DNA of 36,129 nt from a virus, in IMG/VR virus record IMGVR_UViG_3300046458_000065, positions 1 through 36,129 of that record; one strand, written 5' to 3'. The notes beneath the pieces are model-generated. The model was not told where the DNA came from, searched no databases, and saw only the letters and a list, made by a program, of their open reading frames with translations. Positions 9,944 through 32,146 of this stretch are shown here, one piece after another. The stretch's first letter is position 1; each line of letters opens with the position of its first letter. The translations under genes were made by a program, and so were the position numbers.

Positions 9944-10339
9944 ATGAAAAGACTAATAATTACCCTGGTGCTGCTGGCCCCCGTAATCGCAGTGGCGGCA
10001 GACACTCCGCAGGTACAAGAGATGAAGCAGAAGTGCGAAAAGGAACGCACCTCAATGTTTCGCGATAACAACGGAACGCCGACCTGCGATCAACTGGACA
10101 AGATGTCCAACGACTACAACAGGCACACCGTGGAAATGACGGAAGACCTACGCGCAAAATGTGACAAAGAACAGAACTCCATGTTCCGAGAGAACAGTGG
10201 AACGCCCTCCTGCACTCGCTTGAATGAAAAGCTTCAAGACAGGGCTAAAGTGCCATTGGGAAATGGGCTTCGGTACAGTAATGAGCGTGGGAAGAACTGC
10301 TACTTCAACGATGCTGGCGAGGTTCAGTCTTGCCCATAA
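9944..10339 (+). CDS. Secreted/periplasmic cysteine-repeat protein
   Basis: A 131-residue protein with a clear Sec signal peptide (MKRLIITLVLLAPVIAVAA, cleavage before DTPQ). The mature part has an internal duplication: CEKERTSMFRDNNGTPTC and CDKEQNSMFRENSGTPSC, each bounded by two Cys and spaced 40 residues apart, plus a short tail with two more Cys (CYFNDAGEVQSC). Disulfide-bonded periplasmic modules are likely. AAGGAG precedes ATG 9944 by 9 bases; the in-frame start at 9902 lacks this. It is on the opposite strand to the operons on both sides and is directly followed by a terminator, so it is a candidate lysogenic-conversion gene. Confidence 0.82.
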   Translation: MKRLIITLVLLAPVIAVAADTPQVQEMKQKCEKERTSMFRDNNGTPTCDQLDKMSNDYNRHTVEMTEDLRAKCDKEQNSMFRENSGTPSCTRLNEKLQDRAKVPLGNGLRYSNERGKNCYFNDAGEVQSCP

Positions 10340-10365
10340 AAAACCCGACTCATCGGCCGGGTTTT
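10340..10365. terminator. Bidirectional terminator (possible tR'-like on the minus strand)
   Basis: AAAACCCG (10340-10347) pairs with CGGGTTTT (10358-10365) around a 10-base loop, with A and T runs on both sides. On the plus strand it ends the 9944-10339 gene. On the minus strand it lies about 40-60 bases downstream of the candidate late promoter. Confidence 0.8.
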
Positions 10366-10405
10366 CTTAGTAAGTTGCCGTAGGCAAAATACTCAATGTG
10401 GCAAA

Positions 10406-10434
10406 ATGATGCCCTCAGCCGTGCGGGAAGTCAA
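10406..10434 (-). promoter_or_regulatory. Candidate late promoter (pR'-like)
   Basis: On the minus strand TTGACT (10429-10434), a 17-base spacer and CATCAT (10406-10411). It lies just downstream of the gene in the Q position and fires towards the late genes, with a terminator directly after it, as in lambda pR'-tR'. Assignment is by inspection. Confidence 0.45.
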
Positions 10435-10440
10435 CACCTT

Positions 10441-10464
10441 AAAATCCCACTGAATGCAGTGGGA
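10441..10464 (-). terminator. Terminator of the leftward early operon
   Basis: On the minus strand TCCCACT-GCATTC-AGTGGGA forms a perfect 7-bp stem followed by TTTT, 13 bases after the stop of the 10477-11058 gene. Confidence 0.72.
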
Positions 10465-10476
10465 CCCAACCGGACG

Positions 10477-11058
10477 CTAAGCCGCCTCTTTCATCTGGTA
10501 AATGACCGCCCCGACTGGACTCAAGGCCATCCGATCCAGGTCCTCGCAGCACTCGAAAATTAGCGTGATCACCGGTTCCCAGTCGCGCGCCCAGGCACAG
10601 GACTCCAACCGAACCCCGTACTCGCCCATCAGCCATGAACGGAACGCCTCAGGCTTGATCATCGGATCATCATTGGCCGACTGCCCGCCCTGGTGCATGT
10701 AGCGGTAGCGGCGCATCACACCCTTGACTACGTACTCCAGCTTCTCGCGCTTAGCTGCGGTCATGCGCTTGGACTTGGAGACCACCATACCGAACACCAC
10801 GTCCTCCGCTGCCTCGCGGATGTCGTCGCTCCGAAGCGCGGCGTACATGTACTCGCCGAACACACGGACCTGAGGGTGAAGCTTGGCAATGACGGATTGG
10901 ATGTGGCCGGCCAACGCGCCGTGCACGGCGTGGTTCGCGGTCGGTCCGCGCTCGGTGGCCTGGACCACCACGCCCAGCTGAACGACGTCCGAGCTCTGGC
11001 CCGGCGCAGGGTTATAGGTGCAGTCGTGCCATGCCTGACGTGCCGAGTTGATCTTCAT
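10477..11058 (-). CDS. Phage protein in the late-antiterminator (Q) position
   Basis: A 193-residue protein whose start overlaps the NinG stop by 4 bases. The N-terminus (KINSARQAWHDCTYNPAPGQ) precedes a helical core with basic patches (KSKRMTAAKREKLEYVVKGV, then MRRYRYMH). It is the last gene of the leftward early operon and lies directly before a terminator and a candidate late promoter. That is where lambdoid phages carry Q or another late regulator. I cannot see a Q-family motif strong enough to name it, so the regulatory role is positional inference. Confidence 0.82.
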   Translation of the reverse strand: MKINSARQAWHDCTYNPAPGQSSDVVQLGVVVQATERGPTANHAVHGALAGHIQSVIAKLHPQVRVFGEYMYAALRSDDIREAAEDVVFGMVVSKSKRMTAAKREKLEYVVKGVMRRYRYMHQGGQSANDDPMIKPEAFRSWLMGEYGVRLESCAWARDWEPVITLIFECCEDLDRMALSPVGAVIYQMKEAA

Positions 11059-25548: not shown

Positions 25549-26196
25549 CTACATTTTTGTCCGAAGAAAGACTTCCACTTCAGTGAGGCGATCCTTAAAC
25601 CGCAGACCGAAAGCATTTTCCTGGCCATCAGCATACAAAACGCCCTTATGCTCGACCCAAGCCTTCGCATAAAGCTCCCTTGTTTCGGCATCCACTGCCG
25701 GATCCATCGCAGAAGTGTAGCGCCTGGCTACAGTCCACCATTCGTCTTTCATAGCAACCAACGCGCCAACCAATCCATCAACTTCGTGGCCCCAAAGCGC
25801 CTTGGCTTCCAAAAGGTAAGCGCGAACCGGAGCGAGTGAGTTATCAATGGCGCTCAAACGAGCCCGGTAAATCGAGTAAGCGAAAGCGTACCGTTTGCCT
25901 GGAACTGGCGAGCCAGCGAAGCGAGAAGCCTCTTCCTCGCTCAGTTCGCTCAGACTCATACCTATGTCTCGAGCAGCGTTAAGGGTTGCTTCATATGAGT
26001 AGATGGCAACCAGCAACTTTCGTGACAACTCATGGTTCGCGGTACCCCGCAATTGCTGCTTCCATGTCTTCAGCCCTAACCAGCCAAATACGACACCAGC
26101 CACAACTGTACATACGCTTGCGACCGATCCAATCACGGAGGCGACATCCTTAGTTACTTCCCACTGAACCTCAGTGAACGTCAAGCAAAGATCCAT
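25549..26196 (-). CDS. Membrane-anchored hypothetical protein (accessory)
   Basis: A 215-residue protein with GGGGAG 7 bases before ATG 26196. A single hydrophobic helix (SVIGSVASVCTVVAGVVFGW, about residues 20-39) is followed by LGLKTWKQQLRGTANHELSR and a long helical cytoplasmic domain. The TM-GLxTWK..L arrangement occurs in many uncharacterised bacterial membrane proteins encoded in cargo regions. No enzyme motif is visible. It lies in the counter-oriented block and is likely expressed independently of the lytic operon. Confidence 0.75.
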   Translation of the reverse strand: MDLCLTFTEVQWEVTKDVASVIGSVASVCTVVAGVVFGWLGLKTWKQQLRGTANHELSRKLLVAIYSYEATLNAARDIGMSLSELSEEEASRFAGSPVPGKRYAFAYSIYRARLSAIDNSLAPVRAYLLEAKALWGHEVDGLVGALVAMKDEWWTVARRYTSAMDPAVDAETRELYAKAWVEHKGVLYADGQENAFGLRFKDRLTEVEVFLRTKM

Positions 26197-26289: not shown

Positions 26290-26490
26290 TCATTCCACCG
26301 CAAGCATATCGACCGCCCTTTCTATTTCCAATATTGCTTGCGAGACATACCAGCTGCCATAAACCCGATCAACGATAAGAGCTTCTGCCGCTCCCCCGGC
26401 CAACGCTTCCAGGTCGACACCCTGTTTTTTTGCCGTGGCCAGCAGCGACTTCAATGCGATCCCAAGTGCAACTTCCCGTTCCTCGCCCAT
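26290..26490 (-). CDS. Small paralogous protein, copy P1
   Basis: 66 residues: MGEEREVALGIALKSLLATA then KKQGVDLEALAGGAAEALIV and an alpha-helical end (ILEIERAVDMLAVE). It shares the pattern M-x-E-x-R-x-(L/V)-A-(L/M)-x-x-A-(L/I)-x-(A/S)-x-L-x-x-A with genes at 26526, 27892 and 28162, and has a similar leader with CCACAGGA before the start. It follows copy P2 by 35 bases in the same direction. The family is not one I can name; all copies are all-helical, acidic and Cys-poor, so protein-protein or regulatory roles are possible. Confidence 0.75.
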   Translation of the reverse strand: MGEEREVALGIALKSLLATAKKQGVDLEALAGGAAEALIVDRVYGSWYVSQAILEIERAVDMLAVE

Positions 26491-26525
26491 GACGCTCTTG
26501 ATTCCTGTGGTGTGTAAGCCCCAAC

Positions 26526-26735
26526 TTATCGATTTTCGTCAAGATCGAGCACGTCTGCAGCAATTTCGATCTCCCTGATAGCGGCAGCGATAGAAGGAGA
26601 AACGTTGCTGGGCACGAGCGTAAGCGACTCGATTGCCTTTTCACAGAGCTCGTCGACATCTACATAGAGCCCGCGCGCGGCAGTGAGCACCGCCTCAAGC
26701 GCTATCGAAAGAGCCAATTCCCGGTTTTCGCTCAT
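26526..26735 (-). CDS. Small paralogous protein, copy P2
   Basis: 69 residues starting at ATG 26735: MSENRELALSIALEAVLTAA, then RGLYVDVDELCEKAIESLTL and an end AAIREIEIAADVLDLDENR. GGAAGGGAGAAGG forms the SD region; the leader CGCTCCACAGGA recurs nearly unchanged before copy P4 (28374). A longer frame to 26921 reads through the gene at 26783 and is rejected. P2 and P1 form one pair; P4 and P3 form a second. Confidence 0.78.
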   Translation of the reverse strand: MSENRELALSIALEAVLTAARGLYVDVDELCEKAIESLTLVPSNVSPSIAAAIREIEIAADVLDLDENR

Positions 26736-26782
26736 GACCTTCTCCCTTCCTGTGGAGCGGTAAGCGTAGGTCAAATGGATGC

Positions 26783-27031
26783 TCAGTCCAACGGCTGAAC
26801 CTTCCACCGATAATAGGAATAAAGGTGCACCCTGCAATCGTCTGATTTCTTCTCCTTCTCTTTGACCTGCAAGCGGAATTTTGCACCGACCCGACTCGAC
26901 TCTCTGAAGCTTTTCGCGCACTCAACCACGAGAGTAGGCGGGTATTTCTGACCAGGGAGAGGTCGTGCGCGATTCTCGCCTCTTCTCTGATCGAAGAAGA
27001 TTTCAACGTCGAGCAATTCGTACTGGCTCAC
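26783..27031 (-). CDS. Hypothetical protein (82 aa, accessory)
   Basis: It starts at GTG 27031 with GGAG about 9 bases upstream (MSQYELLDVEIFFDQRRGEN). The middle (LPGQKYPPTLVVECAKSFRE, then SSRVGAKFRLQVKEKEKKSD) and the end (VHLYSYYRWKVQPLD) are beta-rich and basic, giving a compact domain of the size of small nucleic-acid-binding folds. It is the first gene of the counter-oriented block and stands about 30 bases from the C-rich/35-bp repeat linker. Not recognised. Confidence 0.65.
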   Translation of the reverse strand: MSQYELLDVEIFFDQRRGENRARPLPGQKYPPTLVVECAKSFRESSRVGAKFRLQVKEKEKKSDDCRVHLYSYYRWKVQPLD

Positions 27032-27071
27032 AAAGGCCGCTCCATCAGCATTCGAACAATCACCAATACCT

Positions 27072-27106
27072 CACTTCCACGAATCACGCCACTGGCGAGG
27101 ATCAGC
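27072..27106. repeat. 35-bp direct repeat, copy 1
   Basis: Identical over 35 bases to 29114-29148 (begins CACTTCCACG, ends GCGAGGATCAGC). Here it provides the SD (GAGG) of the PAPS-reductase-like gene. The second copy precedes a gene remnant. Confidence 0.92.
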
Positions 27107-27107
27107 G

Positions 27108-27878
27108 ATGTCCCAAATATTGAAGCCTCCTACCATGGTCAGCTACGGCGCCGGGACCAACAGCACCGCCATGCTTGTGGAAATGGTCCGGCGCGGCGAA
27201 CACGTCGACCTCGTCACATTTGCCGATACTGGCGGCGAGCGCCCTGAGACCTATGCCTACGTCGAAATGTTCAGCGCCTGGTTGGTCGAGCGTGGGATGC
27301 CGCACATCTTCACTGTGAAGAAAGGCGGTCGCGAAGAAACGCTCGAAGAGAATTGCCTGCGGATGAACATGCTGCCAAGCGTGGCTTACGGCTTCAAATC
27401 CTGCTCAAAGAAATTCAAGATCGAGCCGCAGGAGAAGTTCGCGAACAATCATTCGCTGACACTTGCCGCCTGGGCAGAGGGATTGAAGGTGGTGAAGTGC
27501 ATCGGCTACGACGCTGGCGAGCCGCACCGAGCCAAGTTCTTCGAGGACAAGAAATACCAGTGGCGATACCCCTTGCTTGAGTGGGACATGGGTCGCGAGG
27601 AATGCATTGACTCCATTCGCTCCGCTGGCTTGCCGCTTCCTGGCAAAAGCAGCTGCTTCTTCTGCCCGAACGCCAAACCGCCCGAGATTCTGTCCCTGCC
27701 TGACGATCTGCAAAACCGCGCCATCGCTTTGGAGCGAAACGCAGCGCTGACCAGCATCAAAGGACTCGGCCGTCGCTGGCGCTGGGAGGACTTAATCGCG
27801 TCTGACCGACAGCAGATGGACATGTTTTCTCAACCGCCTGAAATGCCGTGCGGTTGCTATGACGGCGACGCCGCCTGA
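27108..27878 (+). CDS. PAPS reductase-like (PP-loop, adenylyl-binding) phage protein
   Basis: A 256-residue protein with a modified PP-loop at the N-terminus (MVSYGAGTNSTAMLVEMVRR; usual SGGxDS), VTFADTGGERPETYAYVEMF, the GFKSCSKKFKIEP segment, and Cys-rich ends (SSCFFCPNAKPPEI; PCGCYDGD). Phage members of the PAPS-reductase/DndC-like superfamily are widespread; their substrate is not established, with tRNA or DNA thiolation or nucleotide chemistry proposed. The four clustered Cys could bind an Fe-S cluster. GAGG 7 bases before the ATG lies within the 35-bp repeat. It is isolated between two counter-oriented blocks. Confidence 0.88.
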   Translation: MSQILKPPTMVSYGAGTNSTAMLVEMVRRGEHVDLVTFADTGGERPETYAYVEMFSAWLVERGMPHIFTVKKGGREETLEENCLRMNMLPSVAYGFKSCSKKFKIEPQEKFANNHSLTLAAWAEGLKVVKCIGYDAGEPHRAKFFEDKKYQWRYPLLEWDMGREECIDSIRSAGLPLPGKSSCFFCPNAKPPEILSLPDDLQNRAIALERNAALTSIKGLGRRWRWEDLIASDRQQMDMFSQPPEMPCGCYDGDAA

Positions 27879-27891
27879 TCACATCCCGGCA

Positions 27892-28107
27892 TCACACGCC
27901 CTCAACCCCGTCATAATCCAGCGAATCAGCCGCAGCCTCAATCGCCGCACTGGCCTCGGCCACCTCTTCAGCTTCGAATGATCTGTCGCGCAGCATTGAT
28001 TGAATTGCGGCCTCCGTAAGCTCGTCGACGTCTACATAAAGCTCTTGCGCTGCAAGCAACAACGCTTTCACCGCCATCCGCAAAACCTTTTCCCTGTCTT
28101 CGATCAT
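27892..28107 (-). CDS. Small paralogous protein, copy P3
   Basis: 71 residues from ATG 28107 (GTG 28110 adjacent is the alternative), GGAGG 8 bases upstream: MIEDREKVLRMAVKALLLAA, QELYVDVDELTEAAIQSMLR, ending ASAAIEAAADSLDYDGVEGV. The centre LYVDVDEL is identical to P2, and the layout after P4 mirrors P1 after P2. It converges on the PAPS-reductase-like gene with a 13-base gap. Confidence 0.75.
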   Translation of the reverse strand: MIEDREKVLRMAVKALLLAAQELYVDVDELTEAAIQSMLRDRSFEAEEVAEASAAIEAAADSLDYDGVEGV

Positions 28108-28161
28108 CACTGTTTCCTCCCTGAGAAAATCGAGCTTAGACGATCGTAAGAAAAGCGCTGC

Positions 28162-28374
28162 TCAGTGGTTTGGAAACTGAGTTCGTTTGATGTCGTACGC
28201 CAGACGCTGGATTGTCGTTGCGGCCAAGATGCTTTGCTGGTCGTACCCGCCAGTGTCACCGAGCCACTCCACAGCGCCATCACAAAGCGCCTGTACATGA
28301 ACCCCTTGCATTTTCGCGGCTTGAAGGATTGCTCTGATCGCGAGCTGCATTGCCAATTCCCTGTCTTCGCTCAT
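28162..28374 (-). CDS. Small paralogous protein, copy P4
   Basis: 70 residues: MSEDRELAMQLAIRAILQAA, KMQGVHVQALCDGAVEWLGD, then a helical end (SILAATTIQRLAYDIKRTQF). The leader CGCTCCACAGGAGGGAAAAG nearly matches that of P2. The first 20 residues are the best-conserved part of the family. It is followed by P3 with a 54-base gap. Divergence between copies is high enough that these are old duplicates or independent acquisitions, not recent tandem copies. Confidence 0.76.
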   Translation of the reverse strand: MSEDRELAMQLAIRAILQAAKMQGVHVQALCDGAVEWLGDTGGYDQQSILAATTIQRLAYDIKRTQFPNH

Positions 28375-28419
28375 GACCTTTTCCCTCCTGTGGAGCGTTA
28401 AGGATATAGAAACCAGATC

Positions 28420-29148: not shown

Positions 29149-29297
29149 AGATCAACCTATACGGGCAGCTCAACTGGATCGCCGAACCTGCACAATCGGC
29201 GGCGAAGGGATCAGGGTCTGTTTTTGAAAAAACGTTGGGAGCTCACGCGTTACGACTGAGTAGTATAGGACTGGGCGGGAAATATGGTTTCAGCTAG
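29136..29297 (+). pseudogene. Possible gene remnant after the second 35-bp repeat
   Basis: The plus frame reads GEDQQINLYGQLNWIAEPAQ, then SAAKGSGS, protein-like, before drifting into sequence antisense to the 29250-29957 gene and stopping at TAG. No start codon or complete domain is present. It looks like a truncated piece of a plus-strand phage gene left where the next counter-oriented gene was inserted. Weak evidence. Confidence 0.3.
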
Positions 29298-29957
29298 AAC
29301 GACTATCCCCCCTTGGCCCATTCCTTCCGGGAGCTTTATGAAAGCAAATTTTACTGATCCCTTGCTCCCGCTTTGCTTTAAATAGCTCACGGTAATAGTC
29401 GCTGTCTCACCTAAAGGAATGACCGTAGGTGAATAAAATTTTTTTGTCATCCCGGATGGCAAATTTCCAAGGTCAGAGCCTCCCAAATTCTCAGGCTTAC
29501 CTGAATAGTCCCAGCTTATGAAGGTTTTTGTACATGAAACACCTTGATTGGATATCTCAAACGAATTCGTGTTGTCCCTAACCGTTGGGATGTAGACGAT
29601 ATCAAGAATAGGTTCTAACGCCTTCTCTTGCCGCTCTGAAGCAATCTTCTGGTATTCGACGGAACTCTTTAGCTCCTCTGCCTGTATGCGCAAGGCATTA
29701 GAACTGATCTTTAGTTCTCTCCCCTGCTGAATATACCCTAGGACTAGCCACCCAAATGCAACTGGTCCAAAAACACCGGCAAAGAAGTCGCCATACTCAT
29801 TTAATTTCATTACCGCTAGGTCTTCGTAGCGATCAGCCATCAACAAGATTACAAATCCTATCCAAAGAGCGGTTAGATACCCCGCCCACCATTCAATAGA
29901 TCGCGTCATCCAGAACAAAGACTGTTTTTTTTTGCAAAGCAATATCCAACTAAGCAT
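29250..29957 (-). CDS. Two-TM membrane protein with coiled coil (accessory)
   Basis: A 235-residue protein from ATG 29957 with AGAGGTGG upstream (MLSWILLCKKKQSLFWMTRS). Two membrane helices (WWAGYLTALWIGFVILLMA; YGDFFAGVFGPVAFGWLVLG) are followed by YIQQGRELKISSNALRIQAE, a short coiled coil, and a beta-rich C-terminal domain. The GDFFAGVFGPVAFGWLV..Y.QQG.EL pattern occurs in many uncharacterised proteins in Pseudomonas and other cargo regions. Base composition is AT-rich. It is divergent from the methyltransferase gene. Confidence 0.78.
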   Translation of the reverse strand: MLSWILLCKKKQSLFWMTRSIEWWAGYLTALWIGFVILLMADRYEDLAVMKLNEYGDFFAGVFGPVAFGWLVLGYIQQGRELKISSNALRIQAEELKSSVEYQKIASERQEKALEPILDIVYIPTVRDNTNSFEISNQGVSCTKTFISWDYSGKPENLGGSDLGNLPSGMTKKFYSPTVIPLGETATITVSYLKQSGSKGSVKFAFIKLPEGMGQGGIVVLAETIFPAQSYTTQS

Positions 29958-29988
29958 CTGACCACCTCTGCCGATTAAGGGTGCTGAT

Positions 29989-30011
29989 ATACCCCACTCC
30001 CCCTCGAATTG
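29989..30011. repeat. C-rich linker copy before the methyltransferase gene
   Basis: ATACCCCACTCCCCCTCGAA is a degenerate relative of TAACCCCTCCCCCAT at 20951 and 32802. It lies in the divergent gap between the 29250-29957 gene and the methyltransferase. Confidence 0.35.
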
Positions 30012-30052
30012 CCATACCTCAGTTCGATGTGCCGCCGACGTTTGGAGCATTT

Positions 30053-32146
30053 ATGACCTCATTTCAAAAAAAACACCCTTCCGATTTCAAAACGCAGTAC
30101 GGCCTTGGCTTCGACCCGCAAGACGATGAGATCGTCGTGGACTTCTTCTGCGGCGGTGGCGGCGCCGGTACCGGTCTGGAGATGGGACTGGGTCGCAAGG
30201 TGAACGTGGCGAAGAACCACAGCCCCAAAGCAATCAGCATGCACACCGTCAACCACCCGGGCACTAAGCACTTCACCACCGACGTGTTCGAGGGTGATCC
30301 GGATACTGAGTGCGGCGGCAAGGCGGTCGGTTGGTTTCACATGTCGCCTGACTGCACGCACCACAGCCAGGCGGCGGGAGGACAGCCGCGAAAGCGTGAA
30401 ATCCGCAACCTGTCGTGGATTGGCCTGAAGTGGGCAGGCAAGAAGAAGCCCCGAGTCATTAGCCTGGAAAACGTGAAGCAGATTTTGCAGTGGGGTCCGC
30501 TGATCGCCAGGCGCGACAAAGAGACTGGGCGCGCCATCAAGCTGGTGACGGTCCTGAACGCTAAGGGAAAGGAAGTCATCGAGAAGGTTGTCGCCGAACC
30601 TGGCGAGGTTGTCCCCGTAGGCCAGCAGTTTCTGGTGCCTGACCCGAAACGCCGCGGCACTACATGGCGCCGGTTCGTCCAGTTGCTGGAAGGCATGGGC
30701 TACGCGGTGGAGTGGCGCGTGATCAAGGCCTGCGATTTCGGCGCGCCAACCAGCCGGGAACGCCTGTTCATGATCGCCCGTTGCGATGGTCAGCCGATCG
30801 TGTGGCCAGAGCCGACCCACGCCAAGAAGCCCGGCAAGGGGCAGCAAAAGTACCGAACCGCCGCCGAGTGCATCGACTTCAGCGACCTGGGAAAAAGCAT
30901 CTTCGGGCGCAAAGACGAACTGGCCGACGCCACCAAGCGCCGGATCGCCAAGGGCATGAAGAAATTCGTCGTCGACAACCCGGCGCCGTTCATTGTGCCA
31001 ATCGCGAACTGGTCAACCGAGACTGTTCAATCGTTGGATGAGCCGCTGCGCACAGTCACGTCATATCCGAAAGGCGGTTCGTTCTCTGTCGTCAGCCCAG
31101 TGATCGCGCCAGCGACACACCAAGGCAGCGACCGTATCAACGACCCACTCGAACCTCTACCGACTGTGACCTGCGCCAACCGCGGCGAACTGACATTGAT
31201 CAGCCCTACTCTCGTGCAAACGGGTTACGGGGAACGCGACGGCCAGCAGCCGCGCACGCAGGATCTGGATCAGCCTCTCGGAACCGTAGTCGCCGGAGGC
31301 GTGAAACATGCGCTTGCCGCTGCGCACCTGGTCAAATTCCGATTCGACGATGAAGGCAAAGCGCTGGACGAACCGCTGCCGACCATAACCAGCGGCGGCA
31401 ATTACCAACGTCCAGCCGGTGCCGCGCACGCCATGGGCATCGCTACAGCCTTCATGGCGCAGATGAATGGGGGTTTCAACACAACCGACGCAAAAAGCCT
31501 TAACGATCCGATGACCACGGTGACGAACACCGGCAGCCAGCAGCAGCTGGATACCGCAAGCCTCCTACATCTGCGCGGCAACTGCGATGCCCGGGCGGCG
31601 GATGAGCCCCTGCACACTGTCAGCGCTGGCGGCACGCACCACGGCCTGATGACCGCGTTCATGGAACGTCAGTTCGGCGCCAGCGTCGGCCAAGACCTTT
31701 ACGACCCGGCACCGAGGATCACAGCGGGCAGCGGCGGGAAGAGTTCGTTGGTCAGCTTTGAGCTATCGCCAGAACATGAGGAAGGTGCCCTGCGCGTCGC
31801 TGCGTTCCTGATCAGCTACTACGGCACCGAAAACATGAGCGGCTGCGATCAGCCTGCTCCGACGATCACTACCAAGGATCGATTGGGTCTGGTCACCGTC
31901 ATGGTCAAGGGCACGCCCTATGTGATCGTCGATATCCGGCTGCGCATGCTGCAACCGGCGGAGCTGTACCGGGCGCAAGGCTTCCCGCCGGACTACATCA
32001 TCACGCACGGCGCCGACGGCAAACCGTTCACGAAGACCGAACAGGTTCACATGTGCGGTAACAGCGTCAGCCCGCCACCGATGGCCGCCCTCGCCCGTGC
32101 TAACGATCCTTGGCGCGCTGCTCAAAGCCAGGCCGTCGCCGCCTGA
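30053..32146 (+). CDS. DNA (cytosine-5) methyltransferase with repeat-built recognition region
   Basis: A 697-residue protein; GGAG 6 bases before ATG 30053. Motif I is FFCGGGGAGTG (31-41); motif IV is the variant SPDCTHHSQAAGG with nucleophile Cys101 (usual PPCQ); motif VI is SLENV (137-141); motif VIII is FGAPTSRERLFMIA (229-242). Residues ~330-640 hold about eight units of the form D-x-P-L-x-T-V-T-x-G (e.g. LDEPLRTVTS, LDQPLGTVVAGG, LDEPLPTITSGG), an unusually long target-recognition region. Motifs IX-X end with RAQGFPPDYI and HMCGNSVSPPPM. It would modify phage DNA against host restriction. No cognate endonuclease is next to it. Confidence 0.94.
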   Translation: MTSFQKKHPSDFKTQYGLGFDPQDDEIVVDFFCGGGGAGTGLEMGLGRKVNVAKNHSPKAISMHTVNHPGTKHFTTDVFEGDPDTECGGKAVGWFHMSPDCTHHSQAAGGQPRKREIRNLSWIGLKWAGKKKPRVISLENVKQILQWGPLIARRDKETGRAIKLVTVLNAKGKEVIEKVVAEPGEVVPVGQQFLVPDPKRRGTTWRRFVQLLEGMGYAVEWRVIKACDFGAPTSRERLFMIARCDGQPIVWPEPTHAKKPGKGQQKYRTAAECIDFSDLGKSIFGRKDELADATKRRIAKGMKKFVVDNPAPFIVPIANWSTETVQSLDEPLRTVTSYPKGGSFSVVSPVIAPATHQGSDRINDPLEPLPTVTCANRGELTLISPTLVQTGYGERDGQQPRTQDLDQPLGTVVAGGVKHALAAAHLVKFRFDDEGKALDEPLPTITSGGNYQRPAGAAHAMGIATAFMAQMNGGFNTTDAKSLNDPMTTVTNTGSQQQLDTASLLHLRGNCDARAADEPLHTVSAGGTHHGLMTAFMERQFGASVGQDLYDPAPRITAGSGGKSSLVSFELSPEHEEGALRVAAFLISYYGTENMSGCDQPAPTITTKDRLGLVTVMVKGTPYVIVDIRLRMLQPAELYRAQGFPPDYIITHGADGKPFTKTEQVHMCGNSVSPPPMAALARANDPWRAAQSQAVAA

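Follow-up and report, generated by a model that had tools for sequence, protein, structure and literature searches.

The four small genes P1, P2, P3 and P4 in a 36,129-nucleotide stretch of viral DNA (hereafter the window) are members of one homologous family, and their products are, on balance, probably host-acting small helical proteins carried as accessory (moron) cargo of a prophage and expressed in the lysogen from promoters of the sigma-S type. According to this reading, temperate Pseudomonas phages would carry mostly acidic three-helix proteins of ~65–70 aa as moron cargo, encoded by reverse-oriented genes inside the early operon that would probably be transcribed in the prophage state from a sigma-S-type promoter of their own, with a 5′ UTR of roughly 20 nt. 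The window would contain two short operons, P2–P1 and P4–P3, led by the promoters of P2 and P4. Because such a promoter is of the sigma-S type, P1–P4 would be produced when the lysogen is stationary or under stress. Their site of action would be the host cell, where their helical faces would most likely serve to bind another protein; the subtypes would do different, conserved jobs, and the conserved leaders and 5′ coding ends would let phages swap them as cassettes. Taken together, leader, strand and location favour prophage cargo that the lysogen expresses, a reading absent from the preliminary description of this DNA. Given the RpoS-like promoter block, the dormant virus probably makes P1–P4 for the host and not for virus production, a host-directed action that we argue from position only. 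Four "hypothetical" ORFs would thereby become a defined family with an expression rule, namely cargo turned on by the stationary-phase sigma factor of the host, and, if that expression is true, they would offer a handle on prophage action in non-growing Pseudomonas cells.

P1–P4 belong to one family

The preliminary description had noted four paralogous minus-strand ORFs of 66–71 aa, and both their coordinates (Table 1) and their relationship were borne out. Alignment of P1–P4 with MAFFT gave 13 invariant columns over ~70 positions. When an HMM was built from three of the proteins and the fourth was sought, P1, P2, P3 and P4 scored 51.8, 67.1, 53.6 and 47.6 bits, respectively, with E values of 1e-12 to 1e-18. 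A shuffle control asked whether this likeness reflects mere helical composition; among 20,000 shuffles that preserve composition, the top score was only 11.1–15.4 bits, and none of them equalled the real proteins, so that the similarity goes well beyond the heptad-like composition that had been named as the alternative. In addition, an HMM built from other phages alone picked exactly P1–P4 among the 736 frames of the window (E values of 8e-21 to 1e-28). A weak family-HMM match of the membrane protein at 25549–26196 (E ~0.01) was taken as chance. In the P2 region, a longer ORF of 131 aa is merely an upstream open frame, and P3 starts at ATG, with a GTG one codon upstream.

Table 1. Features of the P1–P4 region in the window
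Feature	Coordinates	Strand	Remarks
Reverse-strand cargo, 252 aa	24640..25398	-	no family match
Reverse-strand cargo, probable membrane protein, 215 aa	25549..26196	-	phrog_14464, E 0.0044
P1	26290..26490	-	66 aa; family clade E; second gene of pair P2–P1
P1 leader	26491..26527	-	CCACAGGA kept (~26510–26503); -10 degraded to GGGGCTTAC
P2	26526..26735	-	69 aa; family clade A; leads pair P2–P1
P2 leader GACCTACGCTTACCGCTCCACAGGAAGGGAGAAGGTC	26736..26772	-	-10-like CTACGCTTA at 26769–26761, short 5′ UTR, Shine-Dalgarno
PAPS-reductase-like early-operon gene	27108..27878	+	between both pairs; phrog_424, E 7e-31
P3	27892..28107	-	71 aa; family clade C; second gene of pair P4–P3
P3 leader CGATCGTCTAAGCTCGATTTTCTCAGGGAGGAAACAGTG	28108..28150	-	common to second copy of locus L065, there before a different family gene
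P4	28162..28374	-	70 aa; family clade B; leads pair P4–P3
P4 leader TTTCTATATCCTTAACGCTCCACAGGAGGGAAAAGGTC	28375..28411	-	-10-like CTATATCCTTAA, one base longer than consensus
Reverse-strand cargo, probable membrane protein, 216 aa	28420..29070	-	no family match
Reverse-strand cargo, probable membrane protein	29250..30050	-	phrog_9267 (function unassigned), E 6e-25

Family range and relation to known proteins

The search of phages and Pseudomonas genomes that had been proposed for the family was carried out and yielded 42 copies, distributed over 18 IMG/VR contigs, three Pseudomonas loci from GTDB genomes and the window. Using a 34-row profile, matches, some of them distant, were obtained in 61 of 399 Pseudomonas genomes and none outside Pseudomonas among 369 sampled Gammaproteobacteria; the family is apparently restricted to Pseudomonas. 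Pfam, NCBIfam and a PDB sequence search returned nothing significant, and GenBank phage and plasmid records gave zero tblastn matches. All PHROGs matches were below threshold, the best being phrog_31739, a family of 74 aa with no assigned function (E 0.017 for P4 and 0.028 for P2). Pseudomonas cousins of the family match phrog_31739 with E values down to 5e-27, and the cousin profile aligned with that of the P1–P4 family over the full length with 99.2% probability, so a broader superfamily exists. Since P2 and P4 match phrog_31739 only at the E values above and the kinship runs through intermediates alone, P1–P4 form a separate, distant branch of it. Distant cousins also matched ribosomal L11 (E 0.0045–0.2), but the match resembled a short chance motif and was dropped.

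AlphaFold2 predicted three helices for both P2 (pLDDT 84, pTM 0.64) and P4 (pLDDT 88.5, pTM 0.74). Fold searches with these two models found no convincing relative (best E 2.1 in PDB and 1.9 in BFVD), and the VIA-align Z values of at most 5.2 are ordinary for small helix bundles. The calculated pI values were 4.5, 4.1, 4.1 and 5.5 for P1 to P4, with a family median of 4.3; P4 carries little net charge. Neither fold nor sequence provided a relative of known function in the databases searched, in agreement with the earlier view of four diverged copies of a small helical family that could not be named. The family is thus unnamed in the libraries searched. Prophage cargo without known function is an already known kind; the features that stand out here are the family-specific stress-type leader and the pool of subtypes.

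DUF6124 (PF19619) was considered as a relative and rejected (hhalign probability 0.2). Like the P1–P4 family, it comprises small helical Pseudomonas proteins that are multi-copy and genus-typical, with many paralogs, but it has a different upstream region and no profile similarity to the family. One Pseudomonas genome holds 27 occurrences of DUF6124, many with a similar upstream inverted repeat, CTGCCACC...GGTGGCAG.

Subtypes, copy number and selection

In the family tree, P4, P2, P3 and P1 fell into four separate clades of 10, 10, 7 and 4 rows, with supports of 100/100, 100/98, 99/92 and 96/93, respectively; the tree rests on few columns and its deep forks are unsure. Each of these clades has members from other phages, which indicates that P1–P4 are old subtypes and not local duplications. 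Therefore, the claim of four copies of one family held, whereas the idea that they are recent duplicates of one another did not. Copy-number variation, which had been suggested for inspection, was evident, with one to four copies per phage as lower bounds, because records may be incomplete.

Almost every pairwise dN/dS value was between 0.02 and 0.4, the single exception (0.81) being a very close pair. This result indicated that the copies are conserved and not fast-diversifying, and it lends no support to the "diversified effector" of the preliminary description in the sense of diversifying selection. The other suggestion made there, a set of subunits, was weakened. It is quite improbable that one hetero-oligomeric complex has P1–P4 as its fixed subunits: they share the form of a small helix bundle and subtypes seldom repeat within a phage, with two same-clade pairs observed against 5.2 expected, but this avoidance is suggestive and not significant (P ~0.07), nine of 18 virus records have a single copy (a lower bound, since some may be fragments), and the combinations of subtypes differ among phages.

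C-terminal fragments of the family were observed just downstream of intact copies in two genomes (G010, C1:43871–43927; G014, C1:45784–45840) and are probably remnants of a third family gene.

Conserved leader and putative sigma-S-type promoter

The shared CCACAGGA leader reported earlier was found in P1, P2 and P4, whereas P3 has a different leader. The family-wide block, GGCCTACGCTTACCKCTCCACAGGAAGGGAGAAGGTC-ATG, is longer than this first-noted element and includes, besides the ribosome-binding site, a -10-like element. In P2, CTACGCTTA lies 34 nt before the ATG and fits the extended sigma-S -10 consensus KCTAYRCTTAA, including C at -13 and C at -8, a consensus derived chiefly from E. coli (PMC5650638). 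The P2 leader holds the sole exact CTAYRCTTA in the window. In Pseudomonas, CTATACT is the RpoS -10 element of promoters (PMC2375449), with binding and mutation evidence from P. putida (PMC11784136). A sigma-70 -10 (TATAAT) would share just three of its six bases with TACGCT. From these sequence features we infer sigma-S dependence of the family leaders.

Among the four genes, the element is perfect at P2, near at P4, weak at P3 (CTAAGCT) and absent at P1, a gradation that suits bicistronic units P2–P1 and P4–P3, and P1 would probably depend on the P2 promoter. Across the family, the nine-base core of the extended RpoS -10, CTAYRCTTA, was exact in 28 of 56 copies and had one mismatch in nine more, a few of the latter being artefacts at locus ends; it was nearly always located 34 or 33 nt before the ATG. 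An exact core occurred in 0.05% of shuffles and at three of 1,071 further genes from the regions around the copies, two of the three being boundary artefacts. The deviation of the P1 and P3 leaders from the consensus of RpoS-dependent promoters, together with at least two mismatches in the -10 core of about one third of the copies, counts against promoter-driven expression in the lysogen, as does the consideration that recombination between copies could homogenise leaders without promoter function.

In a set of 27 copies with protein likeness below 75%, conservation of the leader peaked at the C, T, A, C and T of the -10 and ended upstream of it. Moreover, in 1,281 pairs with protein identity below 50%, the -10 region was 66% identical, compared with 38% for the flank, 34% for fourfold-degenerate sites and ~35% for shuffled sequence, indicating that common ancestry alone does not account for the conservation of the block. 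These data bear on a reading in which the leader is a ribosome-binding site kept by common ancestry or gene conversion and the genes are read from a longer reverse-strand cargo transcript. Several copies without a -10 match, and reverse-strand neighbours that could provide a promoter, are consistent with it. We nevertheless consider it unlikely, because the conserved block extends ~15 nt past the Shine-Dalgarno, peaks at a recognisable -10 with its spacing kept, and is still conserved between copies whose synonymous sites have reached saturation and whose immediately upstream flanks are unrelated. An RsmA/CsrA site (ACANGGA) in the leader was rejected as an explanation; its match is limited to some copies, and it shares bases with the Shine-Dalgarno.

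The leader is also specific enough to locate further copies, broken ones included. With one mismatch allowed, its pattern occurred at eight sites in 299 Pseudomonas genomes and at none with a reversed control; six sites precede family genes, one a broken remnant and one an unrelated ORF (in L132). The remnant (L135, ~1501–1600) keeps the conserved leader in full, ahead of a family gene that breaks off after ~13 codons, and represents a decayed copy.

Cassette-like homology between phages

Comparison of P4–P3 of the window with locus L065 showed a stretch of ~73–100% identity that opens with the P4 leader and extends through the first ~60 nt of the following gene, beyond which identity dropped to 40–60%; upstream of the P4 leader the two DNAs are unrelated. 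Similarly, P2 of the window matched locus L066 only from the leader onward. Homology between phages that begins with the leader and ends within the family gene that follows would suit recombination at conserved 5′ blocks, and we infer cassette exchange from these breakpoints. It is possible, though speculative, that Pseudomonas prophages pool one-gene cassettes with the sigma-S leader as recombination anchor, and that the phage-specific sets of three-helix proteins would form a combinatorial programme of the stationary lysogen under the host stress sigma factor.

Genomic context

All 35 copies in 19 virus records lie opposite to the majority coding strand and the phage early operon, that is, opposite to the lytic and early genes. 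The family is outside the conserved phage gene set, and its presence, copy number and subtype vary. In the Salmonella prophage transcriptome, an antisense position is characteristic of accessory loci, one of which has its own promoter (PMC7067206). P1–P4 resemble these moron loci in their position antisense to lytic genes, putative promoter signature, variable presence and cargo neighbours, the candidate promoter appearing as a sequence signature at P2, more weakly at P4 and not at P1. Unlike typical moron loci, they form a multi-copy family with a conserved, family-specific leader of the sigma-S type.

The neighbouring early-region genes encode an exonuclease and DUF2303-like, PAPS-reductase-like and DNA-methyltransferase proteins, several of these names being read from sequence. 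As described previously, the pairs P2–P1 and P4–P3 flank the PAPS-reductase-like gene. This gene and a large DNA cytosine methyltransferase-like gene (30053–32146, plus strand) are DNA-modification-type genes of the early operon. We regard it as extremely improbable that P1–P4 function in the lytic cycle or as early-operon products (in replication or recombination, or as structural subunits): the copies sit within the early region, but on the opposite strand in every case, and they vary as described among phages that share the early genes.

An anti-defence role for the phage, in which the proteins would resemble anti-CRISPRs or DNA mimics and would have diversified in response to host defences, was also weighed. 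The proteins are small and mostly acidic, and defence-type genes are nearby; however, purifying selection is strong, reverse orientation and a stationary-type promoter are ill-suited to a protein needed at phage entry, the gene tables show no constant neighbour of the kind that an aca-type regulator gene would be, and P4 is nearly uncharged. We therefore give this role a low probability. The preliminary description had also raised a constant partner gene, and none was found beside family copies in the gene tables of the compared loci. Small acidic proteins in tandem could be antitoxins or immunity proteins, each with a paired toxin, but there is no constant adjoining partner and most same-strand neighbours are singletons, which makes this role highly unlikely. 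These same-strand neighbours include putAbiC (L066) and PDC-S31/DUF2971 (L078 and L089), and membrane and coil proteins similar to the reverse-strand cargo of the window occur beside family copies in other phages, putAbiC being one of them. In one further locus (L094, 9234–10278), a family copy is flanked on either side by one gene of a paralogous pair (105 and 107 aa), a relative of which (10325–10630) is found near a family copy in L064.
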